A DNA stretch of 64,000 nucleotides from NCBI GenBank assembly GCA_015956445.1, contig WIUZ02000011.1:124001-188000 (forward strand), given 5' to 3'. Below the pieces are notes generated by a model. The model saw only the letters and a program-made list of their open reading frames with translations, made no database searches and was not told the origin of the DNA. Below, one piece after another: positions 21,663-46,526 of the stretch. Position 1 is the first letter of the stretch. The number at the start of each line of letters is the position of its first letter. The translations under genes were made by a program, and so were the position numbers. This DNA comes from Thelephora terrestris. Taxonomy: Eukaryota > Basidiomycota > Agaricomycetes > Thelephorales > Thelephoraceae.

Positions 21663-22807
21663 ATAGATGATATTGCACAGGCGCACCCACGACGAAGACA
21701 CAAGACGACCAGCCTACAGAGTTGAATCCGCACGGACTCTATGGAGGAGGACTAAGGCGTACAAACCCTAGTTGTCAAGACCTAGTTTGCCAGTACTCCT
21801 CAGCACTGGCAACCTCCTCCTCCGTCCCCTCCGAGGCACTCTCGACGGTTTCCTCGTCGACCATCTCGACAACCCGAGCCTCCTTGTCAGGGCCACTCTT
21901 CGCCCTTCAGGTACCAGTGCTGTTGGCGAGTCGCAACTCCAACCAACAAGAAACAATGGGGCAAAGGGGGAACGACTTCCCTATATCCACCCAAAGTCTA
22001 CGTGGTCCAAAACGCGATGGACGAGCGTTCTCTGGTAGGTTGTCCGAATTCACAGCAGGAGTGCCGAGCCTCTATCAGATAAATCCCAATCGTCTTCTGA
22101 GGGCAGATATAAGAGCCTGAGGATGGCGCCTCAAACTGGTGCTTGATTAAGAGAGCGGCGAGGAACTCCTTTTCGTAAGCGCGTTCGCCGATTCTTAACG
22201 CAAGGCCGAGAGAGAGAGGAGAGCGAACGTGTTCAGAGAGTTACTCGATAAGCTCTTCAGTGGCCTACAGCAAATACACCGATGCTGCAAGGAGAAGAGG
22301 ACTTCCCGAGATATCAAAGATGGGGAGTCCTCAGCTACTCTACTGGTACTTTATATAGAAGAGTGGCCGGGACATAGATAACCCTATCTGATGATAACTC
22401 GGAGTAAGGAAGGGCCGAGAGTAAGCTGGAACAGTAAGCGGCCCGGGATATAGAATGGGAGGATAAAGGAATGACTAATGGGTCAGGGTTCGTGAGAGAA
22501 TACGAGAGGGGTCATGACGTCGTGTGGGAAAGGAATGACAAAGAGCGATATCACATGTGAATACTGACCAATAAGAGGACGACGCGTCAGCTCGTCCGAT
22601 CGGGACAACAAAAGACCGAGTGGGGTTTGAATGTCGAGGGCGAGTTGTATGGGGAGTCTGGACCGGTGAAACGATGGACCGATCCAATGGCGAATAGGGC
22701 GCGAGCGCTGTCAGTGGTCGAATAAAGTGTAGCGCAAACCGGCCGTTGGATCCATCAAACTCCCTTCCTCCAAACCAACACTTTCACCAACCAACTACTC
22801 ATCCATC

Positions 22808-25287
22808 ATGCCCATGATCTCCGACCGTGTCTTCCGTGCTGAGAACAGCACTGCTACCATCGAGTCCGCGGATCCTCGGTCCGTGCAGAACAAGAGCTAC
22901 TTCCTACCTAACGCCAGCGTGGCGTACCCCAGTTATCGCGAGGTGCGTTGTCACGCGCACGCCGGTGGTTGGCGTTCGACTGACATCGCTTCCATAGATC
23001 TTCGCGGCCGCCGACAAGGTGGACGCCCGACAACTGGAGGCAACAATCGCCAAGCCTCCCAGCTACCTGACCATGGACGACGAGTTGTGGTATCACAACT
23101 TAATTGACCACAAGCTGCAAGAGTCGATGCGAGGGGTAACGTTCAACACCGAGTTGCGCATGCCGTACGAGACACCTGTGGCTTCGTCGTTGTGGGGGCT
23201 CCTGCGGATGGGGATCTACGACTTGGGGAACGGGGAAGGAAGATGGCCTGGAGCGACTCGCTCCCAACACTACACAGCTGCTGTTGGTCACCGTCTTTGG
23301 TTCCTTTTGAGGACGGAACAGAAAGCGGTGAGTCGATCTGTGCATCCCGCTTGTGGGATAACACTGATGGACTTGTAGAATGAGCGGTTGAAGCGTGAAG
23401 TGAAGGAAGCAAAGGACGACGCCCGTAGGATGTACTCACACTGGGGGCAAGGGGGTACTTACCCAGTGGGTATATTGTGAGTTCATTGTGAGTTTTGAAA
23501 CCATTCACCTGGTTGTTACCCACCAGGTACTTTTTGGGTACTTTTTGAAAGATACCCATCAATTTGCCCGCATTTTACCCACTGGGTACATGGTGGGTAC
23601 TTTGTAAAAGTACCCACTCAGGAACCCAGTGGGTATTTTCTGAGCGAAACCCCTGGGTTCTTTCACAATTTACTTTCCAATGTGCCCATCACAAACCTAA
23701 GCCACTCGTTGAGAGTTCTTTCATAGAGTACCCACTCATCTGACCACAATGTACTCAACCAGATACTCAATGGGTTCTTTGAGAGTTTGTGGAGAAACTG
23801 AGCCACACTGTTATTTCTTTGTGAGTTCTTTGAAAAACACCACTGGGTACATTTTGATTAGATTGGTGGGTATTTTGTGGAAGAACTCTCAACAAGTGGC
23901 TCAGGTTTGTGATGGGCACATTGGAAAGTAAATCATGAAAGAACCCAGGGGTTTCGCTCAGAAAATACCCACTGGGTTCCTGAGTGGGTACTTTTACAAA
24001 GTACCCACCATGTACCCAGTGGGTAAAATGCGGGCAAATTGATGGGTATCTTTCAAAAAGTACCCAAAAAGTACCTGGTGGGTAACAACCAGGTGAATGG
24101 TTTCAAAACTCACAATGAACTCACAATATACCCACTGGGTAAGTACCCCCTTGCCCCCAGTGTCGGAGGCGTTGGACATGAAGAAGACGCTGCTCCTAAT
24201 GAACGATACGCTTCGCGTGACGTTCGAGAGCGAGATGCTGGCAATGCGGGAGGAACACAATCGATTGGTGGAGTCCTTGAAGGAACGGGACGACACCATC
24301 CAGTGGGACCTAATCGAGGTCGACCGACGGCTCAACCGTCACAGAAGGGCTCTGAATGAGCTCGACACCAAGGTCGGTGCAACTTCTCCTGGTCTTCACC
24401 AAGAGAGCTCACGCCACTTCTAGGTCGACACGTTGGACGACGCTTTGCCGTTGTTGGGTGCTCGGGTTGAGTCGATGAGCGAGCGGTTGTGCCACTGCCG
24501 TACACGTTCGGTAGCTGCAGTGCGCGATGAGTCCGGGGACGAGTCGATCCCAGACAGGATGGCTTCCCCCATAGGTCGGGATGCCGGTTGACATATTTGA
24601 CTTGTCCACTGACATCCCTCTTAGCTTCCGATGGATCATACCGCACGCCTGCGCATACTGATGGCGGAGAGGAGGTCGTTCGCGAGACGTCTGAGGAGAC
24701 GGCCGTGAACCCGATTAGTAGTTCTCCCGAGTTGGAGTACGCGGGGGAGAACGAGGTGGCTATTCCGGTTCCGCCTCCGTCGATCTTGCTGGTGCGTGGG
24801 CAACGTTCTATCCGTGCTCGTCGATGGGTTCCTTATCGTGGGGCACTTCGTCCAGCCCACCGCATGCGTCCCAGTAATCCAGACGCTGTCCGCCAGGGTG
24901 GAGACATCGAGTCCACTGTCCTATTCCGACGCGACAATGTTGCAGTGTCGCGTGGATCGCGGCGAGTTGATTCCGGTGGAATCCGTCGACGTGAACGGAT
25001 TAACGAACCTTACGCTCTTGTCGGTCCAGCGTGCAGCGGAGGCCGTTCGCCTGGTGGCTCAACTGACCGAGAGAGTGGAGGGTTGGTCAGTCCAGAGGAC
25101 TCTGGATCAGACTACGGTCGATTCAGCGAGGAACCGCCTGCGCGCCGAGATTCAGCTGGCTGTCGCTCATCGTCTGGAGGAAGCTCGGGTCGTCGAGATG
25201 GTCGACGAGGAAGTCGTCGAGAGTGCCTCGGAGGGGACGGAGGAGGAGGTTGCCAGTGCTGAAGAGTACTGGCAGACCAGGTCTTGA
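22808..25287 (+). CDS. A-type element protein, coiled coil, unknown function (copy A1, interrupted)
   Basis: Multi-exon gene of unknown function. The N-terminal part reads MPMISDRVFRAENSTATIES; then come a helical domain with the signature DDELWYHNLIDHK and LLRMGIYDLGNGEG, a coiled coil (ERLKREVKEAKDDARR, MLAMREEHNRLVESLKERDD) ending in CHCR, an acidic/proline-rich linker (PELEYAGENEVAIPVPPP), and a last exon rich in Gln/Glu helices. Exon starts and ends show regular GT/AG sites (for example 22942/22998, 23327/23379). The last exon (24856-25287, 432 nt) lies in another frame from the preceding one and is reached through a 64-nt intron with GTGCGT donor. The same design, with a last exon also of 432 nt, occurs in the B elements, so A and B proteins are homologous. 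Palindrome P2 interrupts the coiled-coil exon. Confidence 0.7.
23439..24162. mobile_element. Palindrome P2, CACTGGGG family, GGGTA-word type
   Basis: 724 bp, arms of about 350 bp. Starts CACTGGGGGCAAGGGGGTAC. Filled with GGGTAC / GTACCCA / CCCAGTGGGTA. Flanks TCA and TCG, consistent with a 3-bp duplication of which one copy changed. Inserted in the A1 gene. Confidence 0.83.
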
Positions 25288-25545
25288 CGATAGAGTCGGT
25301 CCTCGTTAGTCTCTGTCCATAGGGTCGGTGCGGATTCAACTCCGTTGGCCATTCGTCTTGTGTCTTCGTCGCGGGTTCGCCCGCTGTAATATCATCTGTG
25401 CCTTTGTCTGTGTTTCTTGATGACGTGGGAGTCGTGATAAGGGAAACGGATAAGATAGGAAAAGGGTATAGGTAAGGAAAGTGGGCGAAAGTTGGGTGTG
25501 AAAAATGGTTCAAAAAGAAGTTAAAATTCAGCACGCTGACACTCC

Positions 25546-27176
25546 TCCAGATGATGAGCTACGGCCAGCTGAACTTCGGCGCGAAGGCGGTTCCTCGCTG
25601 AATCGACCATAGTCTGATCCTGAGTCCTCTGGACTGACCAACCCTCCACTCTCTCGGTCAGTTGAGCCACCAGGCGTATGGCCTCCGCTGCACGCTGGAC
25701 CGACAAGAGCGTAAGGTTCGTTAATCCGTTCACGTCGACGAACTCCACCGGGATTAGCTCGCCACGATCCAGGTGACACTGCAACATCGTCGCGTCGGAA
25801 TAGGACAGTGGATTCGATGTCCCCTCCCTGTCGGACGGCGTCGGGATTACTGGGACACATGCGATGGGCTGGACGACGAGCGCCGCTGTAAGGAACCCAT
25901 CGACGAGCACAAATGGAACATTGTCCACGCACCGGAGAGATTGAAGGAGGTGGAACCGGAATGGCCACCTCGTTCTCCCCCGCGTATTCCAACTCGGACG
26001 AACTGCTAACCGGGTTGACCGCCGTCTCCTCAGACGTCTCATGGACGACCTCCTCCCCGCCATCAGTGCGCGCTGGTGTATGGTACGAACTGTCAGAAGC
26101 TAAGAGGGATGTCAGTGGACAAGTCAAATATGTCAACCGGCATCCCGACCTATTGGGGAAGCCATCCTGTCCGGAATTGACTCGTCCTGAACCGCTGCCA
26201 CCGAACGAGTATGGCAGTGGCATAGCCGCTCACTCATGGACTCAACCCGTGCGCCCAGCAACAGCAAGGCATCATCCAGCGTGTCAACCTAGGAGTGGCA
26301 TGAGCTCTCTCGGTTAAAGACCAGGAGAAGTCGCACCAACCTTGGTGTCCAGCTCATTCAAAGCCCTTCTATGACAGTTGAGCCGTTGGTCGACCTCGAT
26401 CAGGTCCCTCTGGATGGTGTCATCCCGTTCCTTCAACGACTCGACCAGTCGGTTGTGTTCCTCCCACATCGCCAGCATCTCGCTCTCAAACGTCACACGA
26501 AGTGTGTCGTTCATCAGGAGGAGCGTCTTCTTGGTATCCAACGCCTCCAAGTACATCCTATGGGCGTCATCCTTCGCTTCCTTCACCTCGCGCTTCAGCC
26601 GCTCATTCTACAAGCCAATCAGTGTTATCCCACAAGCGGGATGCACAGACCGACTCACCGCTTTCTGTTCCGTCCGCAATAGGAACCAGAGACGGTGACC
26701 AACAGCAGCTGTATAGTGTTGGGAACGCGTAGCCCCAGGCCACCTTCCTTCACCATTCCCTAGGTCGTAGATCCCCATCCGCAGAAGACCCCACAGCGCT
26801 GACGCCACCGGAGTCTCATACGGCATGCGCAACTCAGTATCAAACGTCACCCCACACATCGACTCCTGCAGCTTGTGGTCGATCAAGTTGTGGTACCACA
26901 ACTCATCGTCCATGGTCAGGTAGCTAGGAGGCTTGGCTATCGTTGCCTCCAGTTGTTGAGCATCCACCTTGTCGGCAGCCGCGAAGATCTACAGATGCGA
27001 TGTCAGTTGTTGCCAGCAAACGGCGACACGTGATGTCGCACCTCTCGATAGCTGGGGTACGCCACATTGGCGTTCGGCAGGAAGTAACCCTTGTTCTGCA
27101 CGGAGTGTGGATCCGCAGACTCGATGGTAGCGGTGCTGTTCTCAGCACGGAAGACACGATTGGAGATCATGGGCAT
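25546..27176 (-). CDS. A-type element protein, main part of copy A0 (interrupted)
   Basis: Minus-strand copy of the A1 gene in the outer element A0, starting at 27176 (MPMISNRVFRAENSTATIES). It has the same DDELWYHNLIDHK signature, coiled coil and acidic linker, with scattered replacements relative to A1. The final part is separated from the rest by the A1 insertion and lies near 21770-21879. A fossil copy, broken by insertion. Confidence 0.7.
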
Positions 27177-27646
27177 AGTGGGCTGAGTAGTTGGTTGGTA
27201 AGATTGTTGGTTTGGGAAGAAGGGAGTTTGATGGATCCAACGGCCGGTTCGCGCTACGCTTTATCCGACCACCGACAGCGCTCGCGCCCTATTCGCCATT
27301 GGATCGGTCCACCGTTTCACCGGTCCAGACTCCCCATACAACTCGCCCTCGACATTCAAACCCCACTCGGTCTTTTGTTGTCCCGATCGGACGAGCTGAC
27401 GCGTCGTCCTCTTATTGGTCAGTATTCACATGTGATATCGCTCTTTGTCATTCCTTTCCCACATGACGTCATGACCCCTCTCGTATTCTCTCACGAACCC
27501 TGACCCATTAGTCATTCCTTTATCCTCCCATTCTATATCCCGGGCCGCTTACTGTTCCAGCTTACTCTCAGCCCTTCCTTACTCCGAGTTATTATTAGAT
27601 AGGGTTATCTCTGTCCCGGCCACTCTCCTATATAGGTACCAGTAGA

Positions 27647-28147
27647 CACTGGGGGCAGGGGCACCTGGAATCAGTGATTACATCTTGATTACATGGTGAG
27701 TTTATGTGCACTTTTCAATAATTGTAATCGCCGATTCCAGGTTGATTACATTCAAAATGTTACCTTGACATGTAATTCAACTGTTGCCACCAACTCCATT
27801 TAAAATTTCCTCAAGATGCTCCCAAGCAATGTTTCCTGAATGTGCCCAGTGGGTACATTGTGAAAACATCTCATGTTTTTGAGTGCATTTAGATTACATC
27901 TCGGACGATTGAAGAACATGCTGATTACATTGCAGTATCATTTTTCCTGACAGGTTGAAAGCATCCCAGAAACATTTATTGAGAATATTTCAGATGTAAT
28001 TGGTGGACATTGGTTGGATTACATGTCAAGGTAACATTTTGAATGTAATCAACCTGGAATCGGCGATTACAATTATTGAAAAGTGCACATAAACTCACCA
28101 TGTAATCAAGATGTAATCACTGATTCCAGGTGCCCCTGCCCCCAGTG
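27647..28147. mobile_element. Palindrome P3, CACTGGGG family, TGATTACA-word type
   Basis: 501 bp, arms of about 245 bp, starts CACTGGGGGCAGGGGCACC. Flanked by AGA; the empty site is visible in A1 near 22330-22350 (complement of CCAGTAGAGTAGCTGAGG). Filled with TGATTACA and TGTAATC words. Same length and interior as P5 at 38909. Confidence 0.88.
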
Positions 28148-28425
28148 AGAGTAGCTGAGGATTCCCCATCTTTGATATCTCGGGAAGTCCTCTTCTCCTT
28201 GCAGCATCGGTGTATTTGCTGTAGGCCACTGAACAGCTTATTGTCAGGAACATGGTATTTTTAAACTTTTTATAACACGCTCTTTCTTCGAACTCTTCTT
28301 ACCCTTTCTTATGTTTGAATGCTTCACACTCCTTATCCTTCACACCAATCATTCAAAACACACACACGCGCATACTATTCCCAGCGAATCCACAACGAGC
28401 TATATACGGTGCTATCATCGACCCA

Positions 28426-30166
28426 TCAGTAATCGACTCTATCTACGGCAGGCCTAAAGGTCATCAACTGTCCATCCCGGAGATCGTAGTGCTGGCCCCT
28501 CCTCGCAAGGACCTCCCCGAACATGGCGTCACCGTCTTCGGCACTCAGCTGTACGACTAGTTCAAGCCGATAAGAAGAGATGCCTTCGAGCAGACCGATC
28601 AGCCTCCCAGATGTCACCGAACTGCGGAACACCTGGTCCCACATCTCCATCACCGGATGACTGCTCGGCAACACTATCGACGTAGTCGGCAAGCGACCCT
28701 CCGTCTCCCTCGTCGGACCCCTGGGTGGGATCCTGTCTTGCGAGGCGAAGCTGGTGTTGGAGTTGGATCTCTGACTCGACCTGTCGGTAAGGACGGTGGA
28801 CCCGATATCGGAACCCTCGCTCCTCACCTCGACCAGACTTGTCACCATCCGACTCAACTGGTCGAGGGTAAGGATTAGCCGACGCGGTCATGCGATGAGC
28901 GGGACGGCGTCGAGAGCGTTTGCAGCGTTGCCCCTTAGTCACCGGACGTACCTCGGCGACCCTCGGAGCATCTTCGGCTCGGTCAACTTCCATCACCTCA
29001 TCCTCGATCTTCACCAACTGATGGATCGGCTGCAAGACGCAACGCCCACAGTTCTCCTTGTCGGAGGCAGCCAAAGTAGAAGCTGGAGCCGGAGTCGGAA
29101 CGGGAACCGAGTTCTCGATCGGAGGTGTCGCATAGGATGATGGGTTAGGAGATGGGAGTACCACCTCGTCAGCGTACTCCAACTCGAACGGAACCTCGGC
29201 TGTCCCCTGACCAACCAATTTGGGACCCTCTTTGCAGTTGCAGGTTTTGTCCTGCAAGGACTCGACCTGCGCCGTCAACACGGCCACCACGTTCTCGAGT
29301 TCCTCAGTCTAGAAGAAGTGTCAGCTTCCCTCATTTCGTCTTCGAGATGAGGAAAGCTACCTTTTCATCCCTCCTGGCCAGCGCACCCTTAATGTTGTTA
29401 TCCCTAACCTTCAACCCGGCGATCAGCTCTTGATGATTGGCGACCATTGCCTCCAACGCCTCGTTTGTTCCCTGCTGGAAGGCGGCCAAGGTCTCCTTCA
29501 TCTGAAGACCCTCCGCTGACAGACGAAGGACGTCTGCCTTCACCTCTTTCACCTCACGCTCCAATCGTTCAACCTAGGCAGTTTGATTAGTTGAGAGTCA
29601 TACTCGAATATTCAAACGGAGAACCTACCCGGCTTTCCCCCTCTCGAACGAGCGACCACAAGAGACTAGTGGAAGCGGTGGCGTGGTGGACAGCCCGAGG
29701 AACGGTTGCTCCGTGCTCCAACAGATCCTGATCGTAGATTCCCCTCTGCAGGGTGTACCAGAGCTCCTTCTTGATCGGATGCTCCAACTCCCCGAACCTA
29801 CCCCTCATCTGGAAGGCCACCTTCTCGGCGATAATCGTACGAACCCAGAGCTCGTCGTCCCAGGTCAACCCCATCAAATGTGGGATCGTCTCCCTGAGAC
29901 GTTCAGCGTCCACCTCCGTGATGACCTCCAAGATCTAGAAGCCGTTAGTTGGACATCAATGCCCTAAAGAACGTAACCTCTACCTAGAGGAAGGCGTTAG
30001 TGCAAACACACGAAGCTCTAGGTCTCCCCCATACCTGATCATCAGTGGTATAGGGAGTCCCCGCTGCAGTGGCGTAGGTCTTGCGAGCGGCGGCACGATT
30101 GTCAATACGAGAGATGGTAGAGATGCCGTTGGTGACTTTGTAGGTATGGTTGTTGGGGAAGGACAT
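28426..30166 (-). CDS. B-type element protein, coiled coil, unknown function (copy B1)
   Basis: Minus-strand gene of five exons with start at 30166 (MSFPNNHTYKVTNGISTISR). Features: a helical domain with LTWDDELWVRTIIAEKV and LWYTLQRGIYDQDLLE; a coiled coil (LEREVKEVKADVLRLSAEGL, NEALEAMVANHQELIAGLKV); the pair CNCKEG; an acidic linker ELEYADEVVLPSPNPSS; and a last exon ending LSAEDGDAMFGEVLARRGQH. A basic cluster (CKRSRRRPAHRM) lies in a stretch that can be read as intron or exon. Function unknown; no catalytic motif recognised. Confidence 0.72.
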
Positions 30167-30493
30167 GTTTTGGTAAGATGATGGGGAAGTTGCTGGTGTT
30201 GTTGATCAAGGATGGCTCCAAGAAGACGTCCTTCTTATAGCCTAGATCGGTGATCCTTCACGTGACCTACCTCGACGAACCTCATTGGTCCGGGTCACAT
30301 CAACTTCCGCCCCTGTACCATCATCGTTGGCTTACTACATCAAGCTGACACCTCGGCCCACGGGACGGCCTTGGAAGAACTTCGTTCCGGAACGCCTAGA
30401 ACGCACGCGCACTAAAAATAGGATTTCGACCTGACTTGCAGTGACCTCGGACAACCTACCAGAAGAATAGAGACGTGACCGTTCTCTCACAAG

Positions 30494-33400
30494 TGTCAGG
30501 GCCACTCTACCCCAACAACTACCAGTGCACTGAGCCGACTCCGCAGAGTACTCACTAGTCCAACTAGCTTGTGAGAGAACGATCACGTCTCTATTCTTCC
30601 GGTAGGTTGTCCGAGGTCACTACAAGTCAGGTCGAAATCCTAAAGAGAAACCCAACCTAAACCATACTTCGTTCGGTTTAACACGCAAGGGTTTATCTCT
30701 ACAGCAGGATTGATGACTCCACCAGGTGATCGACTGGACGCTCGAGGTGTTCTATAAGGTGAACGCTGGGGTTCTATAGTTACGAGGCGCAGCTGACGCG
30801 CAGAGCGGGAGGGAGAGCAGATGGGGGATGTCTTGGATCAAACAAGAAACTCTGACTTGTCCTTAACTGCAACTGGGCTGAGAAGGGCAGAGGATTTCCT
30901 GAGGTAATAAAACTAAGGTACTACGATACAGCCACAGTTGCTACTTATACTAAAGGAGTGGCCATGACGTCAGTACCCTAATATACCCTTATCAAGTCCG
31001 AACAAAGGGAGATAAGGAGTGTGAGAACGCTAAGTAAGGGAAGCGAACAAATATGACACGTGGGAAAATAAAGGACAAAGGGCCTTACTAGCGTGTGAAG
31101 GATTGCATAAAAGATAACGAATGTCAGCATGAAACATAGGGGTAAAGATAACACTAGTCCTAAAAGAAAGAGGGGCATGGGGTCATGAAAGTTCGTACCT
31201 GGGGATCACACCCAAGGGCTAGGTGAGAATCTTCGGTTGATCGTAATCGTAAAGTCATGGGGGGGTCGTAAAAGGGGTTCGTGATGTCATAAAGGGGTCA
31301 TCAGGGTCTTGAGACCTATTTTTAGTGCGCGCGTGTTCTAGGCGTTCCGGAACGAAGTTCTTCCAAGGCCGTCCCGCGGGCCGAGGTGTCAGCTTGATGT
31401 AGTAAGCCAACGATGATGGTACAGGAGCGGAAGTTGATGTGACCCGGACCAATGAGGTTCGTCGAGGTAGGTCACGTGAAGGATCACCGATCTAGGCTAA
31501 GCTATAAGAAGGACGTCTTCTTGGAGCCATCCTTGATCAGCAACACCAGCAACTTCCCCATCATCTTACCAACATGTCTTTCCCAAACAACCACACCTAC
31601 AAAGTCGCCAACGGCATCTCCACCATCTCCCGTATCGACCGTCGTGCCGCCGCCCACAAGACCTACGCCAGTGAGGCGGGAACTCCCTATACCACCGATG
31701 ACCAGGTATGGGGGAGGTCTAGAGCTTCTTGTGTTAGCACTAACACCCTCCTCTAGGTAGAGGTTACGTTCTTTTGGCATTGATGTCAAGCTAACGGCTT
31801 CTAGATCTTGGAGGTCGTCAAGAAGGTGGACGCCCAACGTCTCAGGGAGACGATCCCACATTTGATGGGGTTGACCTGGGACGATGAGCTCTGGGTCCGG
31901 TCCATGATCGCCGAGAAGGTGATCTTCCAGATGCGGGGTAGGTTCGGGGAACTGGAGCATCCGATCAAGAAGGAGCTCTGGTACACCCTGCAGAGGGGGA
32001 TCTACGATCAGGACCTATTGGAGCACGGGGCAACCGTTCCTCGGGCTGTCCGCCATGCCACCGCTTCCACGACGCTGTTGTGGTCGCTCGTTCGGGAGGG
32101 GGAGAACAAGGTAGGTTCTCCGTTTGGATATTCGAGTATGACTCTCGACTAACCAAACTGCCTAGGTTGAACGATTGGAGCGTGAGGTGAAGGAAGCGAA
32201 GGCAGACGTCCTTCGTTTATCAGCGGAGGGTCATCTGATGAAGGAGACTCTGGCCGCCTTCCAGCAGGGGACGAACGAGGCGTTGGAGGCGATGGTTGCC
32301 AACCATCAAGAGTTGGTCGCTGGTCTGAAGGTCAGGGACAACAACATCAAGGGGGCGCTGGCCAGGAGGGATGAAAAGGTGCTTTCAGCCTTTGCAGGTT
32401 TATGCAATGACTGAGAGACTTCTTCTAGACCGAACAGCTTGAGGACATGGTGGCGGTGTTGACGGCGCAGGTCGTGTCCTTGCAGGATAAGACCTGCAAC
32501 TGCAAGGAGGGTCCGAAGTTGGTTGGTCAGGGGACTGCCGACGTTCCGTTCGAGCTGGAGTACACCGACGAGGTGGTACTCCCATCGCCTAACCCATCGT
32601 CCTATGCGACACCTTCGATCGAGAACGCTGTTCCCATCCCGACTCCGGCTCCGGCTTCTACGTTGGCCGAGTCCGACAAAGAGAACTGTCGGTGTTGCCC
32701 GTTGCAGCCGATCAGTCAGCTGGTCAAGATCGAGGATGAGGTCATGGAGGTTGACCGGGCCGAAGATGTTCCGAGGGCCATCGAGGTACGTCCAGTGACA
32801 ACAGGGCAGCGTTGCAAACGCTCTCGACGCCGTGTTGCTCATCGCATGGCTCCTTCGGCTAACCCATACCCTCATCCAGTTGAGTCGGATGGTGACCAGT
32901 CTGGTCGAGATAGGGGACGAGAGTTCCGCTATCAGGTCAACCGTCCCTACCGACAGGTCGAGTCGGAGATCCAGCTTCGCCACCAGCTTCGACTCGCAAG
33001 ACAGGATCCCACCCAGGGGTCCGACGAGGGAGACGGAGGTTCGCTCGTCAACTACGTCGATAGTGCTGCCGAGCAGTCACCCGGTGATGGAGATGTGGGA
33101 CCAGGTGTTCCAGAGTTCGGTGACATCTGGGAGGCTGATCGGTCCACTCGAAGGCATCTCTTCCTATTGGCTTGAACTAGTCGTTCAGCTGAGTGCCGAA
33201 GATGGTGACGCCATGTTCGGGGAGGTCCTTGCGAGGAGGGGCCAGCACTACGATCTCCGGGATGGAAGGTTGATGACCATGAGGCCTGCCGTAGATAGAG
33301 TGGACTTTTGATGGACTGGGATAGCACCGTATATAGCCATGTTGTTACGATTCGCTGGGAATGGTACGCGCGTTTGTGTGTTTTGAATGATGGGTGTGAA

Positions 33401-33498
33401 GGATAAGGAGAGTGAAGCGTTCAAAACATAAGAAGTGGTAAGAAGAGTTCGAAGAAAGAACGTGTTATAAAAAGTTTAAAAATACCATGTTCCTGACA
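30494..33498 (+). mobile_element. Element B2 (TGTCAG-ended, gene-bearing), inserted in B1
   Basis: 3005 bp, TGTCAGGGCCACTCT to TACCATGTTCCTGACA, flanked by ACAAG (30489-30493, 33499-33503). Looks whole. The leader is about 1.1 kb with a TATA box (TATAAGA, 31503) about 70 bases before the start codon. Confidence 0.9.
31574..33311 (+). CDS. B-type element protein, coiled coil, unknown function (copy B2)
   Basis: Five exons: 31574-31705, 31805-32110, 32166-32378, 32429-32785 and 32880-33311, all with GT/AG introns, giving 479 residues without a break. Domain order as in the other copies: N-terminal leader, helical domain with LTWDDELWVRSMIAEK and LQRGIYDQDLLE, coiled coil with LEREVKEAKADVLRLSAEGH, CNCKEG pair, acidic proline-rich linker, then a tail ending LARRGQHYDLRDGRLM. 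The last intron (32786-32879) has a GTACGT donor and no stop, so intron retention would give a different tail with the basic cluster KRSRRRVAHRM that stays open to 33175. Homologous to the A-type protein (shared DDELW, GIYD, ERLxREVKEAK). No similarity to transposases, integrases or reverse transcriptases that I can recognise. Confidence 0.78.
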
Positions 33499-33875
33499 AC
33501 AAGCTAGTTGGACTAGTGAGTACTCTGCGGAGTTGGCTCAGTGCACTGGTAGTTGTTGGGGTAGAGTGGCCCTGACACTTATCGAGTACCTCTTTGAACA
33601 CGTTCGCTCTCCTCTCTCTCTCGGCCCTGTATCAAGAATCGGCGAACGCGCTTACGAAAAGGAGTTCCTCGTCGCTCTCTTGATCAAGCATCAGTTTGAG
33701 GCGCCATCCTCGGGCTCTTACATCTGCCCTCCGACGACGATAGGGATTTGTCAGATAGAGGCTTGGCACTCCTGCTGTGAATTCGGACAACCTACCGGAG
33801 AACGCTCGTCCATCGCGTTTTGGACCATGTAGACTTTGGGTGGATATAGGGAAGTCGTTCCCCCTTTGCCCCATT

Positions 33876-36609
33876 CACTGGGGGCAGGGGTTGGTTTACT
33901 GAGTCAGTAAACTGTGAGTAAATCACAAGGAAATGGAAAAAGAACCTAGTGAAATACTTGCCTGGCAAGCGCAAAGCAAATTCACAATTTACTGAGCCAA
34001 TTTACCTGCAATTTACTGGGTTCAGTATGCGCTCAGTATGTTTACAGTTTACTGGGTCATGTGACCACAGTTTTCCCATTAGGTAAACCTTGGAAAAATT
34101 CACAATTTACTGAATAAATTTACCTGCAATTTACTGAGCCACTTGCCCAATCAGTATGTTTTTAATTTGCTGAGTGGTTTGATCACGGTTTACTGGACTC
34201 AGTAAACTGGAAAAAAACCAAACTGGTTTACTGACAATGTCCCTGATTGGTCAATTCTCAAAATAACCGAAAATTTACCTGGACGTGTCATTTTCAGTAA
34301 ACTGCAAGTTTTCTTTCAGTAAATTGGAAATACACGTCAGGTAAACTGGGAAAACACGTGACGATTTGATCATGGTTTACTGGACTCAGTAAATCAGAAA
34401 AAAACCTAACTGGTTTACTGACAATGTACCTGATTGGCTAATTTGAAAAGAACTCGAAAATTTACCAGGACGTGTCTTTATCAGTAAACTGCAAGTTTTC
34501 TTTCAGTAAATCGCAAGTACACGTAAAGTAAACCAGAAAACACGTGTAAACTGTAAGTAAATTCAAAGTTTACATGTTTTCTGGTTTACTTTACGTGTAC
34601 TTGCGATTTACTGAAAGAAAACTTGCAGTTTACTGATAAAGACACGTCCTGGTAAATTTTCGAGTTTTTTTCAAATTAGCCAATCAGGTACATTCACTGG
34701 GGGCAGAGGTTGGTTTACTGAGTCAGTAAACTGTGAGTAAATTACAAGTAAATGGAAAAAGAACCTAGCGAAATACTTGCCTGACAAGCACAAAGCAAAT
34801 TCACAATTTACTGAGCCAATTTACCTGCAATTTACTGGGTTCAGTATGTGCTCAGTATGTTTACAGTTTACTGGGTCATGTGACCACAGTTTCCCCATTA
34901 GGTAAACTTCGGAAAAATTCACAATTTACTGAATAAATTTACCTGCAATTTACTGAGCCACTTGCCCAATCAGTATGTTTTTAATTTGCTGAGTGGTTTG
35001 ATCACGGTTTACTGGACTCAGTAAACTGGAAAAAAACCAATCTGGTTTACTGACGACGTCCCTGATTGGTCAATTCTAAAAATAACCGAAAATTTACCTG
35101 GACGTGTCATTGTCAGTAAACTGCAAGTTTTCTTTCAGTAAATTGAAAATACACGTCAGGTAAACTGGGAAAACATGTAACGATTTGATCGTGGTTTACT
35201 GGACTCAGTAAATCAGAAAAAAACCTGACCGGTTTACTGACGATGTACCTGATTGGCTAATTTGAAAAAAACTCGAAAATTTACCAGGACATGTCTTTAT
35301 CAGTAAACTGCAAGTTTTTTTCAGTAAATTGCAAGTACACGTAAAGTAAACCAGAAAACACGTGTAAACTGTAAGTAAATCCAAAGTTTACGTGTTTTCT
35401 GGTTTACTTTACGTGTACTTGCGATTTACTGAAAGAAAACTTGCAGTTTACTGATAAAGACACGTCCTGGTAAATTTTCGAGTTTTTTTCAAATTAGCCA
35501 ATCAGGTACATCGTCAGTAAACCGGTCAGGTTTTTTTCTGATTTACTGAGTCCAGTAAACCACGATCAAATCGTTACATGTTTTCCCAGTTTACCTGACG
35601 TGTATTTTCAATTTACTGAAAGAAAACTTGCAGTTTACTGACAATGACACGTCCAGGTAAATTTTCGGTTATTTTTAGAATTGACCAATCAGGGACGTCG
35701 TCAGTAAACCAGATTGGTTTTTTTCCAGTTTACTGAGTCCAGTAAACCGTGATCAAACCACTCAGCAAATTAAAAACATACTGATTGGGCAAGTGGCTCA
35801 GTAAATTGCAGGTAAATTTATTCAGTAAATTGTGAATTTTTCCGAAGTTTACCTAATGGGGAAACTGTGGTCACATGACCCAGTAAACTGTAAACATACT
35901 GAGCACATACTGAACCCAGTAAATTGCAGGTAAATTGGCTCAGTAAATTGTGAATTTGCTTTGTGCTTGCCAGGCAAGTATTTCGCTAGGTTCTTTTTCC
36001 ATTTACTTGTAATTTACTCACAGTTTACTGACTCAGTAAACCAACCCCTGCCCCCAGTGATTGTCAGTAAACCAGTTAGGTTTTTTTCTGATTTACTGAG
36101 TCCAGTAAACCATGATCAAATCGTCACGTGTTTTCCCAGTTTACCAGACGTGTATTTCCAATTTACTGAAAGAAAACTTGCAGTTTACTGACAATGACAC
36201 GTCCAGGTAAATTTTCGGTTATTTTGAGAATTGACCAATCAGGGATGTCGTCAGTAAACCAGTTTGGTTTTTTTCCAGTTTACTGAGTCCAGTAAATCAT
36301 GATCAAACCGCTCACCAAATTGGAAACATACTGATTGGGCAAGTGGCTCAGTAAATTGTGGGTAAATTTGTCCAGTAAATTGTAAATTTTTCCGAGGTTT
36401 ACCTAATGGGGAAACTGTGGTCACATGACCCAGTAAACTGCAAAAATACTGAGCACATACTGAACCCAGTAAATTGCAGGTAAATTGGCTCAGTAAATTG
36501 TGAATTTGCTTTGCACTTGCCAGACAAGTATTTCACTAGGTTCTTTTTCCATTTACTTGCAATTTACTCACAGTTTACTGACTCAGTAAACCAACCCTTG
36601 CCCCCAGTG
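33876..36609. mobile_element. Palindrome P4 (outer), CACTGGGG family, TTTACTG-word type
   Basis: Starts CACTGGGGGCAGGGGTTGG; flanked by ATT (33873-33875, 36610-36612). The empty site is readable in A1 near 21950-21965 (complement of TTTGCCCCATTGTTTC). About 1366 bp without its insert and almost wholly palindromic, filled with dozens of TTTACTG / CAGTAAA words. Holds a second copy of the same family. Confidence 0.88.
34695..36059. mobile_element. Palindrome P4 (inner), self-nested copy
   Basis: 1365 bp, nearly the same length and sequence as the outer copy. Flanked by ATT (34692-34694, 36060-36062), so it inserted into a member of its own family. Centre near 35380. Confidence 0.88.
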
Positions 36610-36682
36610 ATTGTTTCTTGTTGGTTGGAGTTGCGACTCACCAACAGCACTGGTACCTGAAGGGCGAAGAGTGGCCCTGACA

Positions 36683-37402: not shown

Positions 37403-37478
37403 CTCCCCCTTACTAAGTACAGCTCCCTGTATAACTTCATTGGTGGGAACTGGACTGTAGTAAGTTGGAGGTATGTGC

Positions 37479-38936
37479 TCAGGAGAATTCAAGGCCTAGG
37501 GCATCTCTGAATTTTCTGAGTTTGACGACCCCAAGGTTCTTCGTCAGGAGATCCGCGGGATTGTCATCTCTGGGAATGAAATACACTACCATGCGTCCGT
37601 CATTGATGACTTCGCGAATATAATGATAGCGGATATCGATATGTTTCGACCTCTTTTCAGTAACTGGGTTTGAGGCGATAAAGATCGAGCCTTGGTTATC
37701 TCCGCAGATTGGGATGGCTTTGAGGTTATAGCCGAGCTCCCCCAGAAGGGTATGCATCCAGACTACTTGGCGGCTTCAATCAGAGAGCGCCATGTATTCA
37801 GCCTCAGTGGACGACAGCGCAATGGTTTTCTGCGCTCTTGAGGTCCATGAGATGAGTCCCTTTGCCATCCGGACAAAGTATCCACTTTGGGATCGTCTCT
37901 GAGTGGGGTCCGAAGCCCAATCTGAGTTGGTACAGGCTGAGATACCTTCCCGTGAATCTCCGTCGTAGGTTAGTCGGTATTTCGAAGTCCCAATTAAGTA
38001 GCGGCAGATATACAGCACTTTTTCGACGTGCTCTTTTGACGGGTTTGCAGCATATTGCGCAAGTTTAGTGACCGCGAAGGCAATATCTGGTCGGGTACCC
38101 AGCATGAGGTATAGTAAGGAACCAATTATGGTTTGGAACCTGCTTCGTCTTTCCGGGCATGCTACCTCTGTCGACGGAGTCGGCACATACCCGGCTGGGA
38201 GAGGGGTTGCTGCAACTTTAGCATTCTGCATCCCACATCGCTCAAGGACCGTTTGGAGGTAGGCGCATTGATCTATGGAGATCTTGCTGCCATGTCGGGT
38301 GATCCTCATGCGGAGGAAATTGGTTAGGTCCCCTAAATCCCTGGTTTCCCATATCTTCATGAACTCCCCCTTGAGCTGCTCCGTAAGCGCTGTGTGGGGT
38401 CCGGTAAAGATGGCGTCGTCTACGTAGATTAATGCGATTACGAATCTTCCGTCTTTATCCTGGTAGATGAAGATCCCGGCATCTGAGCTCAAGGATTTGA
38501 ATCCGAGCTTTTCCATGGACCGTTTCAGGGCTCGCCACCATGCGAGCCCGGCTTGTTTCAGTCCGTAGAGGGCACGCTTTAAGCGGAGAACATGAGTCTC
38601 TTTTCCTGGAGCTATGAATCCCTCTGGTTGTTCCATGTAGATCTCCTCGTCGAGTTCGCCGTATAGATACGCATTTCGAACATCAAGTCCTTTAAGGGCC
38701 CATCCTTCGAGGGCGGCCATTGCAAATATTAGGCGCACTGTCTCGAATCGGACAACAGGGGAGAACACGGCATCGTAGTCCATTCCCTCAACCTGTGAGA
38801 AGCCTTTCGCTACTAAGCGGGCTTTCTTTCGACCATCTGGTTTCTGGTCGAATACCCAGCGGTTTTTGATAACCTTGCGGCCTCGAGAGCGCTCTACCAG
38901 GTCGTATACACTGGGGGCAGGGGCACCTGGACTCAC
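37479..38936 (-). pseudogene. Copia reverse transcriptase and RNase H region
   Basis: Typical copia RT: NRWVFDQKPDGRKKARLVAK, DVRNAYLYGELDEEIYMEQP, LYGLKQAG and YVDDAIF, then RNase H with SQSGYFVRMAKG and LSSTEAEYMALSD. Part of the fossil above; the upstream side is cut by palindrome P5. Confidence 0.9.
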
Positions 38937-39409
38937 TGATTACATCTTGATTACATGGTGAGTTCATGTGCACTTTTCAATAATTGTAACTGCTGATTCC
39001 AGGTTGATTACATTTCAAATGTTACCTTGACATGTAATCCAACTGTTGCCACCAGCTCCATTTGAAATTTCCTCAAGATGTTCCCAAGCAATGTTTCCTG
39101 AATGTGCCCAGTGGGTACATTGTGAAAACATCTCATGTTTTTGAGCGCATTTAGATTACATCTTGAACGATTGAAGAACATGCTGATTACATTGCAGTAT
39201 TATTTTTGCCAACAGGTCAAAAGCATCCCAGAAACATTTGTCGAGAACATTTCAAATGGAATTGGTGGACATTGATTGGATTACATGTCAAGGTAACATT
39301 TGAAATGTAATCAACCTGGAATCGGTGATTACAATTATTGAAAAGTGCACATGAACTCACCATGTAATCAAGATGTAATCACGAATTACAGGTGCCCCTG
39401 CCCCCAGTG
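38909..39409. mobile_element. Palindrome P5, CACTGGGG family, TGATTACA-word type
   Basis: 501 bp, same length and interior as P3. Starts CACTGGGGGCAGGGGCACC, flanked by ATA (38906-38908, 39410-39412). Inserted into the copia fossil. Confidence 0.88.
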
Positions 39410-41119: not shown

Positions 41120-41251
41120 GATTTCGAAATCAGCACTGTAAATGGCATCAATTTTAGCAGCAGTAATTTGCGCTCCGAGGAGGGTTCTGATGATGTAAAT
41201 GCTATCATCCTCGGTTCGAGGGTGGAAGGTGAGAAACTCTGTCTCTTCTTC

Positions 41252-41760: not shown

Positions 41761-41869
41761 CCTTTTTTCGGGGGCGAGGATTGACTGTTTGCTCGTAGGA
41801 GCATTCCAGTCTCTTGAGGGTCTCAATTGTGGGCTGTACGCCTATCCGATGAACTACCCAGTTTCGCTA

Positions 41870-43218
41870 AGTCGTGGGAACACGTAGCAAGAAGAGGGAG
41901 CTGAAGGGTGTGGGTGACCGGTTGTGCAGACGTCGGTAGGGTAAAGCAGGTAGAGGTAGAGAGGAGTAGGGAGGAGCAGGGAGAAGTAGGGAGAAGTAGG
42001 GAGGGAATAGGAAGTGGTAGCGATAGAGTAGAGTCTCAATAGACGAGCGTCGCAACGAAGAGGGTCGCGGCGGGATAGGTGGCTAAGGAAGAAGCTGTCA
42101 GCGCGAGACGAGAGAACGAGAGGATACCTGAGACGAGAAGAAACTAGTAGAAGTGGTGAACACTGCGTTCGCCACGAAGAGCTAAGAGCTGAGCACTGCG
42201 CTCAAGACTGGGGTAGAGCACTGCGCTCGCGAGACGAGTAGAGAAGGTCGAGAAGCACTGCGCTTCACGTCGAGAGAAGTCGAGACGAGGAAAGAGAAAA
42301 GCTAGAGGGTTCTTCAAGCACTGCGCTCAAAGAGAACTTGGTCGCGAGGAACGAAGAGTGTTGGAGGCTTTAGACAGCGCAAGGCTGAGTTGAACTTCAG
42401 AGGGAAAGGGGGAACTGCACTTCGCTATTCGAACCAGGACTGTCTACTGACACTTATATAGTAGGTAGAGAGAGTAGTCGAAGGTAGAACACGAAGAGGG
42501 GAGAACAAAACATAACAAGGCAAACGTTGCAAGAGAGCGGGAATCGTGAAGTTCGTGAAGGGCGTAGGGAGGTCATACAAAAACGAAGAGCGGAACAGAG
42601 GGGAGAACAAGAATGCGCGAAGGACAAACAAGACAGCGGGAGGAGTGGGGGGGAGGAATGAAGGTATCATGGGAAACTACGGGACAATGAAATGGAGGAT
42701 CGAACTGAGAAGTCAAAGCGGGATCAGAGTGGAACAGGCGGGAGGCGGGGAACACGGCGAGACAGTCGAGACGGCGACAACATGCAACAAGAGGGCGGGG
42801 GGCACGTGTTCCGGAGTCAGGACTGCGGACCGATGCGGGGGAATCCGAACAATGACGAACAAGGGGGGCGAGGCGAGTCAAGTCAGGTGGGAGAACGGAA
42901 GTGATCGGGTGGCACATGGGATCGGGGAGGCCGGACTCGGAGCGTGGACTTAGAGGATTTTGTCGAAGTCCAAAGGAGCGGGAGGTCACGAGACTATCGG
43001 GAGGCTGGCGATGGTCGACAAGGGGTCGTGTCGGAGGAGGGGGCTTCGCGCTGCATCGCGATGTATGGGTGGATAGCTGAGGAGGGTGCTGGAGTTGCTA
43101 GGGGTATAGTACGAGTCGGACGGCCAGCGAAACGGAGGCAGGTCACCGAGCCGAGAGATCCCTTGCCTTCTGAACGGAGGGGTAGAAGGAGGGAGTCCCT
43201 GCACCTTCATGATGGACC
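41870..43218 (-). repeat. LTR-like segment within the copia fossil
   Basis: Purine-rich on the plus strand, pyrimidine-rich on the minus, with a TATATAAGTG box read leftwards at 42452-42461 and short tandem repeats (GGAGAAGTAGGGA type; AGCACTGCGCTC recurs between 42160 and 42330). It separates copia gag from protease. The borders are not resolved; a solo LTR of another family is the likeliest reading. Confidence 0.45.
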
Positions 43219-43223
43219 GGGAG

Positions 43224-46200
43224 TGTCAGGGCCACTCTACCCCAACAACTACCAGTGCACTGAGCCGACTCCGCAGAGTACTCACTAGTCCAACTAGCTT
43301 GTGAGAGAACGATCACGTCTCTATTCTTCCGGTAGGTTGTCCGAGGTCACTACAAGTCAGGTCGAGATCCTAAAGAGAAACCCAACCTAAACCGTACTTC
43401 GTTCGGTTTAACACGCAAGGGTTTATCTCTACAACAGGATGGATGACTCCACCAGGTGATCGACTGGACGCTCGAGGTGTTCTAATATGAACGCTGAGGT
43501 TCTATAGTTACGAGGCGCAGCCGACGCGCAGAGCGGGAGGGAGAGCAGATGGGGGATGTCTTGGATCAAACAAGAAACTCTGACTTGTCCTTAACTGCAA
43601 CTGGGCTGAGAAGGGCAGAGGATTTCCTGAGGTAACAAAACTAAGGTACTCCGATACAGCCACAGTTGCTACTTATACTAAAGGAGTGGCCATGACGTCA
43701 ATACCCTAATATACCCTTATCAAGTCCGAAACAAAGGGAGATAAGGAGTGTGAGAACGCTAAGTAAGGGAAGTGAACAAATATGACGCGTGGGAGAATAA
43801 AGGACAAAGGGCCTTACTAGCGTGTGAAGGATTGCATAAAAGATAACGAATGTCCGCATGAAACATAGGGGTAAAGATAACACTAGTCCTAAAAGAAAGA
43901 GGGGCATGGGGTCATGAAAGTTCGTACCTGGGGATCACACCCAAGGGCTAGGTGAGAATCTTCTTGGATGCTTCCTTTGGAGAGGCCAAAGATAGAGACC
44001 ATACAGCATCCCTTGTTGTCTGTAGGCGGTAACAGCATCACGGACTAGTGGCAACCTTATCGTGCGTCCGAACATGAGGAGCGAGGGCCTAGACTCATGG
44101 GACATAAGGGATTACAGATTCGCCGGCGTTTCACGCTAACGGCTACTCCACATGCGCTGAGCTAACCAGAAGGATCCTAAGGCAATGCTTCCGAATAGCA
44201 GCGAGTCCTTCCTCCGGTTAGGAGACTGTGATGTGACTGTCCACGTGTGTGATCAGGGTCCAGGGTTGATCGTAATCGTAAAGTCATGAGGGGTCGTAAA
44301 AGGGGTTCATGATGTCATAAAGGGGTCATCAGGGTCTTGAGACCTATTTTTAGTGCGCGCGCGCGTTCTAAGCGTTCCGGAACGAAGTTCTTCCAAGGCC
44401 GTCCCGCGGGCCGAGGTGTCAGCTTGATGTAGTAAGCCAACGATGATGGTACAGGGGCGGAAGTTGATGTGACCCGGACCAATGAGGTTCGTCGAGGTAG
44501 GTCACGTGAAGGATCACCGATCTAGGCTATAAGAAGGACGTCTTCTTGGAGCCATCCTTGATCAGCAACACCAACAACTTCCCCATCATCTTACCAAAAC
44601 ATGTCCTTCCCCAACAACTATACCTATCAAGTCGCTCATGGTATCTCCACCATCTCCCGTATCGACCGTCGTGCCGCCGCCCGTAAGAGCTATGCCAACG
44701 CGGCTGGAACTCCCTACACCACGGATGATCAGGTATGGGGGAGAACTAGGGCTTCTTGTATTAGCGCTAACTCCTTCCTCTAGGTACAGGTCGTACAGCA
44801 TCGGCTTTAGACGTTGAGCTAACGGCTTTTTAGATCTTGGAGATCGTCAAGAAGGTGGACGCCGAACGTCTCAGGGAGACGATCCCTCACTTGATGGGAT
44901 TGACCTGGGACGACGAGCTCTGGGTCCGTACGATGATCGCCGAGAAGGTGATCTTCCGGATGAGGGGTAGGTTCGGGGAACTGGAGCATTCGATCAAGAA
45001 GGAGCTCTGGTACACCCTGCAGAGGGGAATCTACGATCAAGACCTTTTGGAGCACGGGGCAACCGTTCCTCGGGCCGTCCGCCATGCCACTGCCGCCACC
45101 TCGTTACTGGGGTCGCTCGTTCGAGAGGGGGAGAACAAAGTAGGTTCTCCGTTTGGATATTCGAGTATGACTCTCGACTAACCAAACTGCCTAGGTTGAA
45201 CGATTGGAGCGTGAGGTGAAGGAGGCGAAGGCAGACGTCCTTTGTCTATCAGCGGAGGGTCTTCAGATGAAGGAGACTCTGGCCGCCTTCCAGCAGGGGA
45301 CAAACGAGGCGTTGGAGGCTATGGTCGCCAACCATCAAGAGTTGATCGCCGGGCTGAAGGTCCGGGACAACAACATCAAAGGGGCGTTGGCCAGGAGGGA
45401 TGAAAAGGTAATGCCGCTTTCATCATTTGTTTAGAATGATGGAAGCTGACATTTCCTAGACTGAAGAACTCGAGGACGTGGTGGCGGTGTTGACGGCGCA
45501 GGTCGCGTCCTTGCAGGATAAGACCTGCAACTGCAAGGAGGGTCCCAAATTAGTTGGTCAGGGGACTGCCGACGTTCCGTTCGAGCTGGAGTACGCCGAC
45601 GAGGTGGTACTCCCATCGCCTAACCCGTCGTCCTATGCGACGCCTCCAGTAGAGAACGCGGTTCCCGTCCCGACTCCGGCTACGGCTTCCACGTTGGCCG
45701 AGTCTGACAAGGAGAACTGTCGGCGCTGCCCGTTGCAGCCGATCAGTCAGCTGGTCAAGATCGAGGATGAGGTCATGGAAGTCGATCGGGCCGAAGATGT
45801 TCCGAGGGCCATTGAGGTACGTCCGGTGACAACAGGGCAGCGTTGCAAACGCTCTCGACGCCGTGTTGCTCATCGCATGGTCCCATCGGCTAACCCATAC
45901 CCGCGTCCAGTTGAGTCAGATGGTGACCAGTCTGGTTGAGATAGGGGACGAGAGTTCCGCTATCGGGTCAACCGTCCCTACCGACAGGTCGAGTCGGAGA
46001 TCCAGCTTCACCATCAGCTATGACTCGCAAGAGAGGATCCCACCCAGGGGTGTGACGAGGGAGACGGAGGGTCGCTCGCCGACTACGTCGATAGTGCTGC
46101 CGAGCAGTCACCCGGTAATGGAGATGTGGGATCAGGTGTTCCAGAGTTCGGTGACATCTGGGAGGCTGATCGGTCCGCTCGAAGGCATCTCTTCCTATCG

Positions 46201-46526
46201 GCTTGAACTCGTCGTTCAGCTGAGTGCCGAAGATGGTGACGCCATGTTCGGGGAGGTCCTCGCGAGGAGGGGCCAGTACTATGATCTCCGGGATGACCGC
46301 TTGATGATCATGAGGCCTGCCGTAGATAGAGTTGACTTTTGAGGACGTTGTATAAGCATTGTATAGCCAGTTGTTCCGTATTGCCGTGAATGTATGCGCG
46401 TTTGTGTGTTTTGAATGATTGGTGTGAAGGATAAGGAGTGTGAAGCATTCAAAACATAAGAAGTGGTAAGAAAAGTTCGAAGAAAGAGTGTGTTATAAAA
46501 AGTTTAAAAATACCATGTTCCTGACA
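43224..46526 (+). mobile_element. Element B3 (TGTCAG-ended, gene-bearing), inserted in copia
   Basis: 3303 bp, TGTCAGGGCCACTCTACC to TACCATGTTCCTGACA, flanked by GGGAG (43219-43223, 46527-46531). Leader of about 1.35 kb with TATAAGA at 44528, about 70 bases before the start codon. The leader carries roughly 300 bp more (about 43964-44262) than B2. Confidence 0.9.
44601..46342 (+). CDS. B-type element protein, coiled coil, unknown function (copy B3)
   Basis: Same five-exon plan as B2: start MSFPNNYTYQVAHGISTISR, DDELWVRTMIAEKV, LQRGIYDQDLLEHG, coiled coil LEREVKEAKADVLCLSAEGL, CNCKEG, acidic linker ELEYADEVVLPSPNPSS, and a last exon in a different frame ending at 46342. Differences from B1 and B2 are mostly single conservative replacements, so the protein appears to have been under selection while the elements spread. 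Confidence 0.72.

Follow-up and report, generated by a model that had tools for sequence, protein, structure and literature searches.

Long terminal repeat (LTR) retroelements begin with TG and end with CA and are bounded by target duplications of 4-6 bp. Some of them carry an additional gene in antisense orientation between pol and the 3' LTR, cases being gene23 of Grande in maize, RIRE2 in rice, Retand and the fungal element Boty; some of the products are nuclear, and their functions are described as unknown (PMC7264820). For the Sushi chromoviruses, which are known from fungi and fish, the integrase motif is given as TGTYANR...CNTNACA, from a set drawn mainly from zebrafish (PMC3601003). 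In this study we examine a stretch of 64,000 nucleotides of the basidiomycete Thelephora terrestris (contig WIUZ02000011.1 of assembly GCA_015956445.1, positions 124,001 to 188,000 of the forward strand; hereafter the window, numbered from its first letter), in which two diverged families of TGTCAG-ended elements, A and B, carry one homologous multi-intron gene. A first-pass annotation made from the letters alone had noticed these gene-carrying elements, and that observation holds, with the corrections given below. We find that the gene bears the substitution pattern of a protein under selection, and we tentatively read the element copies as solo LTRs that belong to a Ty3/gypsy-like element and carry the gene in antisense within a long U3 (unique 3') region, a reading to which we give somewhat less than an even chance.

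The terminal block TGTCAGGGCCACTCT is found without mismatch five times in the window, on the plus strand at 21885, 30494 and 43224 and on the minus strand at 33577 and 36682, and every one of these exact sites is the 5' end of one element. The copies are the following.

20294-36682, minus strand: family A, copy A3, the outermost element; target duplication GAGTC; its colinear pieces match the other A copy.
21885-25541, plus strand: family A, copy A0; 3657 bp; target duplication CTCCT.
28242-33577, minus strand: family B, copy B1; target duplication CTTAT; interrupted by the copy at 30494-33498.
30494-33498, plus strand: family B, copy B2; 3005 bp; target duplication ACAAG.
43224-46526, plus strand: family B; 3303 bp; target duplication GGGAG.
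49997-51231, minus strand: family A, fragment A1; 3' part only, with a CTGACA end; the match stops at its 5' side.
63049-64000, minus strand: family B; CTGACA end; cut by the end of the window.

The CTGACA end is thus present in all seven copies, as had been claimed, but the 5' block, which had been ascribed to all seven as well, is present in only five, and the outermost A copy begins at 20294, outside the range of 21885-46526 first assigned to the elements. The five exact target duplications stand as first reported: each of the five complete copies has TGTCAG...CTGACA ends and an exact 5-bp direct repeat outside both of them, which is the combination of TG...CA ends and 4-6 bp duplication seen in LTR elements. 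Three other copies are nested in A3, two directly (21885-25541 and 28242-33577, the latter with 30494-33498 inside it), together with several CACTGGGG-ended insertions. Complete copies without nested inserts are 3.0-3.7 kb long, and the 5' noncoding part varies in length within family B, being about 0.7 kb shorter in B1 and 0.3 kb longer in the copy at 43224-46526 than in B2. In A0 an insertion at 23438-24163 breaks exon 3.

Both families are real and carry a homologous gene with short, spliceosomal introns, in agreement with the first-pass annotation, and the product is about 465-502 amino acids long. A single model of five exons (132, 306, 213, 357 and 432 nt) serves the three B copies at 28242-33577, 30494-33498 and 43224-46526 and gives a stop-free spliced protein of 479 amino acids; the large A copy, read across its nested copy, has six exons, the last also of 432 nt, and encodes 489 amino acids. 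The gene features to which we refer below are these.

31574-31705, plus strand: B2 exon 1.
31805-32110, plus strand: B2 exon 2, with the DDELW and GIYD motifs; identity between families 37-39%.
32166-32378, plus strand: B2 exon 3, a coiled coil by appearance; only weak Pfam matches, below cut-off.
32429-32785, plus strand: B2 exon 4, with a CxC pair and an acidic proline-rich linker.
32786-32879, plus strand: B2 last intron, 94 nt; coding if retained, when it would add a basic KRSRRR...AHRM stretch.
32880-33311, plus strand: B2 last exon in the spliced frame; the read-through frame is open to 33175.
44601-46342, plus strand: gene of the copy at 43224, with exons 44601-44732, 44834-45139, 45195-45407, 45460-45816 and 45911-46342.
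22808-25287, plus strand: gene of A0, with an interruption at 23438-24163; aligned to the other A copy, it has six exons.

The proteins of the two families show about 35% identity across the alignment, with DDELW, GIYD and the CxC pair conserved, and the introns are all present in the five modelled copies (four in each of three B copies, five in each of two A copies). Of the exon plan said to be shared by A and B, the homology and the conserved motifs hold, but the exon number does not, being five in B and six in A. The 432-nt last exon put forward as part of that plan does agree in length between the families, but it is not the sole reading of this region, and the spliced tails of A and B align no better than shuffled sequences (p 0.6). 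Searches against Pfam with the B2 protein, the A3 protein and the read-through tail of B1 gave no match above the cut-offs, and for the tail no match; the best matches below cut-off were UPF0242 (expectation value, E, 0.017), PspA_IM30 (0.029), Adeno_L433K_22K (0.067) and Iec3-like_M (0.15). A sequence search of the PDB with the B2 protein found no relative up to E 1. Viral contigs yielded no relative by protein alignment, which confirmed none of 121 pattern stretches, or by end pattern, and among prokaryote genome contigs none of 121 pattern stretches was confirmed as a relative. The earlier statement that the gene comes with no recognisable mobility enzyme is supported by Pfam for two proteins and the tail and by the PDB for one protein; in particular, the profile search of the B2 protein, proposed at that stage as a check, returned no accepted known domain. 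Two structure predictions for exon 2 are all-helical at low confidence (mean predicted local distance difference test score, pLDDT, 55.2 and 44.6), and on these models the N-terminal part of the protein is probably helical.

Variable sites fall at codon positions 1, 2 and 3 in the numbers 15, 7 and 25 in B exon 2, 17, 8 and 43 in B exon 4, and 6, 1 and 34 in A exon 2. For B exons 1-4 and A exons 1-5, all 23 comparisons show more synonymous changes than random placement would give, the fraction of 2000 simulations that reach the observed synonymous count being 0 to 0.0035 in each. The Nei-Gojobori ratio of nonsynonymous to synonymous divergence (dN/dS) is 0.14, 0.12 and 0.11 for three B pairs and 0.05 for one A pair. 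Insertions and deletions are absent from B exons 1-4 across three copies and number two in A exons 1-5, of which one coincides with the removed insertion and the other measures 12 nt. The claim that selection acts on the protein is therefore sustained by the third-position bias and by dN/dS of 0.05-0.14 in both families, and judged by these substitution patterns the gene is real and is kept under purifying selection in A and B alike.

The last intron, 94 nt long in B and 64 nt in A, behaves in part like coding sequence. When it is read through, its variable positions number 3, 4 and 13 in B and 3, 2 and 9 in A (pooled chi-square p 0.0005), with a significant synonymous excess in four of five B pairs and two of three A pairs. 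Over the first 40 residues of the read-through tails the A/B alignment beats shuffled sequences (p 0.001), RRPAHRM being common to both, and over the whole length the likeness is not significant (p 0.08). Of the 432 nt of the last exon, the read-through frame runs on without a stop for 293 in two of three B copies tested and for 404 in the A copy tested, an openness that codon permutation seldom reproduces (p 0.0004 and 0.0018 for B, 0.0002 for A), as is also the case when codons are redrawn from the gene's own usage (p 0.02 and 0.02 for B, 0.0002 for A); the third B copy, at 43224-46526, has an early stop in this frame. Read-through coding within the last intron is well supported by these patterns, and the basic stretch that it would add appears to resemble a nuclear localisation signal.

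The spliced form also has support, in that divergence jumps significantly at the spliced stop in five of eight copy pairs, which are not independent of one another, and the B last exon past the read-through stop keeps a third-position lean (variable positions 4, 6 and 11). Several results speak against two overlapping frames. Past the read-through stop in B, the synonymous excess of the spliced frame is significant in none of five pairs (p 0.06-0.16); across the last exon the excess of the read-through frame reaches significance in one of five B pairs and none of three A pairs, and that of the spliced frame in none of five B pairs and two of three A pairs. In the last exon the variable sites spread unevenly over the codon positions in A (7, 20 and 24; p 0.01), with no significant unevenness in B (17, 24 and 25; p 0.42). 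The openness of the spliced frame is no evidence, because after shuffling of the read-through codons that frame is still open in 22-62% of permutations. We regard the alternative use of the last intron with overlapping frames as plausible but not proven.

Divergence is distributed unexpectedly over the elements. In both families the 5' noncoding part (the first ~930-1080 bp) is 2-4.5% diverged, against 20-42% at fourfold sites of the gene, and the change lies close to the start codon. Between the copies at 30494-33498 and 43224-46526, 21 of 1072 noncoding positions differ against 30 of 146 fourfold sites (Fisher p 2e-16), and for the two A copies the corresponding counts are 41 of 921 and 62 of 149 (Fisher p 4e-32). 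The large changes in length that the 5' region tolerates argue against base-by-base constraint and for a shared origin younger than the gene. That account conflicts with short introns that are almost unchanged, namely B intron 2 (0/55 and 3/55 in two pairs), A intron 2 (3/51) and A intron 4 (0/50 and 1/50), and we know of no one explanation that covers both; B introns 1 and 3 are diverged by up to 9-50%. Frequent recombination or an arms race acting on the gene may lie behind the inverted pattern. A search of the 5' noncoding part in three copies for a hidden protein, with a cut-off of 55 codons, found open stretches of 55-102 codons, none common to A and B by eye.

The 5' end matches the Sushi motif in all five copies that have that end, and the 3' end in all four B copies; A and B share 83% identity over the first 36 nt, and a second block conserved between the families surrounds CCGGTAGGTTGTCCGA. 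Inside the element lies a further feature, given here for A0.

22358-22374, minus strand: inverted copy of the 5' terminus, about 475 bp inside; the TATATAAA box follows on the minus strand.

This inner inverted terminus has the same place at 27612-27626 (in 20294-36682), 30955-30969 (in 30494-33498) and 43683-43697 (in 43224-46526), and its GGCCACTC core is found in all four copies holding the region, from both families. A TATA-like box directed outward on the minus strand stands beside the conserved GGCCACTC, 448-468 bp from the 5' terminus, again in four of four copies with the region. A structured RNA in the 5' unit was considered and rejected, the folding z-scores of -1.22 (B) and -4.20 (A) being in disagreement and the inverted terminus being enough to aid folding; no Rfam match is found over 20000-47000.

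We favour the antisense solo-LTR reading because the minus-strand TATA-like box, followed by some 450 bp and then by CCCTGACA, resembles the order U3, TATA box, R (repeat) and U5 (unique 5') of an LTR. The copies would then derive from a Ty3/gypsy chromovirus-like retroelement, as its solo LTRs or as LTR-derived units, unusually long because U3 would hold the gene opposite to the orientation of the retroelement. In this layout a short outer U3 end would be followed by the antisense gene, about 0.45-0.95 kb of further sequence, the outward TATA-like box, and about 450 bp of R-U5 closing in ...AGAGTGGCCCTGACA. Of the integration step, the TG/CA ends and the 5-bp duplications are observed, and a retroviral-type integrase would have joined the one and left the other. 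Introns of an antisense gene would escape splicing in the retroelement's genomic RNA and so survive copying, and the fact that no intron is missing from the five modelled copies is explained by antisense placement or by copying as DNA; an intron-bearing gene in the RNA sense of a retroelement should lose its introns over time. Kept or removed, the last intron may supply either the basic tail resembling a nuclear localisation signal or the other tail, and the most likely role of the protein would be regulation or protection of the retroelement inside the nucleus, a role that has been suggested for plant antisense genes, for example that of Grande. A shift of the LTR border could, speculatively, have brought such a gene from the interval between pol and the 3' LTR into U3. 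No internal region, where a primer-binding site and a polypurine tract would be expected, adjoins the complete copies because their target duplications bound them.

A number of observations weigh against this reading. The A 3' end departs from the Sushi motif at one of seven positions in all three A copies, and the inner inverted terminus has no known role in an LTR; a free search gives the inner block a score of 18, less than the median of shuffled maxima (21), so that its weight derives from the position common to the copies and not from the score. The plus strand also has a TATA-like string (TATAAG), which precedes the start codon by 71-73 bp in all three B copies, and the inner box in A matches both strands; with TATA-like strings on both strands, the antisense orientation is argued from position and conservation, not from expression. 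On the minus strand no AATAAA or ATTAAA signal is present in the five copies scanned. The window holds no LTR pair around a polymerase and no full-length element that we could find: the direct copies at 30494-33498 and 43224-46526 do have copia pol pieces between them, but each is flanked at either end by a duplication of its own, which makes them separate insertions and not the LTRs of one element.

The main rival of the favoured reading, which we hold to be possible but on the unlikely side, would be a gene-carrying DNA transposon, non-autonomous and mobilised in trans by a transposase of the Gypsy-integrase type (Ginger2/TDD-like). The inner inverted terminus, at the same place in both families wherever the region is held, would then be a right end, now decayed, left from a small ancestral element, which later gained the gene by use of a more distant right end, and the full sets of introns fit this account too. 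TDD-4 and TDD-5 of Dictyostelium, DNA transposons by description, have a Gypsy-like integrase and duplications of 5 bp (PMC2836005). Ginger2 elements, by contrast, are described with inverted repeats of 50-180 bp, against the 6 bp (A) or 7 bp (B) that the true ends share here, with duplications of 4 bp and with AT-rich RTATAY targets (PMC2836005). An integrase-type transposase was seen between no such ends in the window, and a KDZ transposase at 58197-60007 is not tied to them. The same introns count against solo LTRs with the gene in the sense of the retroelement, sharing its promoter and occupying R-U5, which we think improbable: sense introns should vanish on copying of spliced RNA, and none is missing from the modelled copies. 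The TATAAG string upstream of the B start codon and the jump in divergence near that point speak for this reading, but neither of two A copies scanned has a TATA match there.

Two further possibilities start from the protein. The copies might belong to a new fungal class of element in which the all-new protein of the sole gene directs movement or packaging, perhaps in two forms obtained through the last intron and its overlapping frames, and with recognition sequences in the uniform 1-kb noncoding end. Selection has kept the protein in both families, no other gene was found in the element (the 5' part having been checked in three copies), and Pfam gave no accepted known domain and the PDB no relative of the one protein searched. 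On the other side, no catalytic fold is recognised, the invariant acidic residues (for example those of DDELW and GIYD) sit in models too poor to judge, and the coiled-coil appearance and basic tail would point to binding, not catalysis; we give a new class little chance. Among the three readings offered by the first-pass annotation it is this one that is left without positive evidence, whereas the solo-LTR reading has gained most, from the end motif, the duplications and the outward TATA-like box. Finally, a captured host gene could be the mere passenger of an ordinary LTR family or of miniature inverted-repeat transposable elements, which is the least probable account of all. Its short spliceosomal introns and the lack of an accepted Pfam relative among element proteins would suit a captured gene, but families only about 35% identical in protein have both kept it at dN/dS of 0.05-0.14, which a useless passenger would not do.

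Several described classes were tried as homes for the elements and rejected. Ginger1 is described with 4-bp CCGG or CCGT duplications and inverted repeats of 40-270 bp, against 5-bp duplications here, none of them CCGG or CCGT, and shared ends of 6-7 bp; membership of Ginger2/TDD, as described with 50-180 bp inverted repeats and an integrase-like transposase, is set aside on the same short ends and on the lack of such a domain. The TGT..ACA ends of PlavakaA, an EnSpm-like fungal element, do fit, but its 2-bp duplications do not agree with the 5 bp found in five of five copies (PMC12730594). Elements of the hAT5 group have 5-bp duplications, but their CAG-type ends do not fit TGTCAG. An element with two LTRs around gag is not indicated, the ends not being directly repeated inside the two B copies searched whole (a 14-nt string, GATAAGGAGTGTGA, recurs near the 3' end); the search in A covered a stretch without the 3' end.

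The window around the elements is rich in repeats, with copia polymerase pieces, a KDZ transposase with a CxC2 cluster, and an F-box gene. The copy at 43224-46526 lies between the copia pol pieces and an open frame at 46493-47170 on the minus strand with a weak copia-type gag match below the Pfam cut-off, and the A1 fragment at 49997-51231 lies at the end of an open frame at 49518-50180, downstream of a frame at 48261-49517 that has a CCHC-like motif by eye and no Pfam match. Palindromic insertions with CACTGGGG...CCCCAGTG ends occur at 20438-21662, 23439-24162, 27647-28147, 33876-36609 (compound) and 38909-39409, with identical 3-bp flanks in four of the five (ATA, AGA, ATT and ATA; the second has TCA and TCG), and from the CAC..GTG ends and the 3-bp repeats they may be fold-back elements of EnSpm/CACTA-like type. 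The KDZ transposase at 58197-60007, on the minus strand, is matched in Pfam at E 3e-29 and its CxC2 cysteine cluster at E 8e-37. An inverted repeat of 2.65 kb at 54047-56696 has arms of about 1.3 kb that are 93% alike and contain runs of GGTTA-type strings, and near the F-box gene two diverged gene copies, at 8779-9786 and 12777-13745, are 70% identical and coiled-coil-rich by eye, with Pfam matches under the cut-off.

If the antisense solo-LTR reading is true, these are LTRs that carry a whole multi-intron antisense gene under selection, so that antisense extra genes, which some plant and fungal elements carry between pol and the 3' LTR, would extend into the LTR itself and a solo LTR could retain a whole gene copy. 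The elements would then offer a natural test case for the function of antisense extra genes and for the survival of introns through reverse transcription, as well as for selection that keeps an overlapping reading frame. Titles and the beginnings of abstracts, which cover the literature in part and do not prove absence, yielded no fungal LTR with a comparable gene.

Of the systems with which the elements can be compared, the VANDALs of Arabidopsis are Mutator-like. Their protein VANC, encoded by the element and acting against silencing on the noncoding DNA of its own family, which it demethylates and de-represses by way of a DNA motif, is a possible model for the protein here (PMC5735166), though it is likened by description only and the tandem motif array of the VANDALs is not shown in these elements. 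Ginger2/TDD elements have TGTNR termini, a Gypsy-type integrase as their transposase and, in TDD-4 and TDD-5, 5-bp duplications, but they differ in their long terminal inverted repeats and encoded transposase, neither of which was found here (PMC2836005). Retrosat2 and its relatives in plants, with LTRs of more than 3.2 kb, have a similar and rare LTR length and an extra gene, but that gene, ORF0 (open reading frame 0), lies upstream of gag-pol and outside the LTR (PMC3485330). In HBZ of human T-cell leukemia virus type 1 (PMC1654176) and in the reported antisense LTR gene of human immunodeficiency virus type 1 (PMC7264820), as in our favoured reading, an antisense gene is driven from within an LTR; compared by description, they differ in host kingdom, size and number of introns. 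A further parallel is with Grande, RIRE2, Retand and Boty, from which the present elements are set apart by a gene with four to five introns that lies inside the TG...CA unit, with no gag-pol seen in the element, and with which they share an extra gene without database relatives that is kept in most copies and, on the favoured reading, would run antisense to the retroelement.

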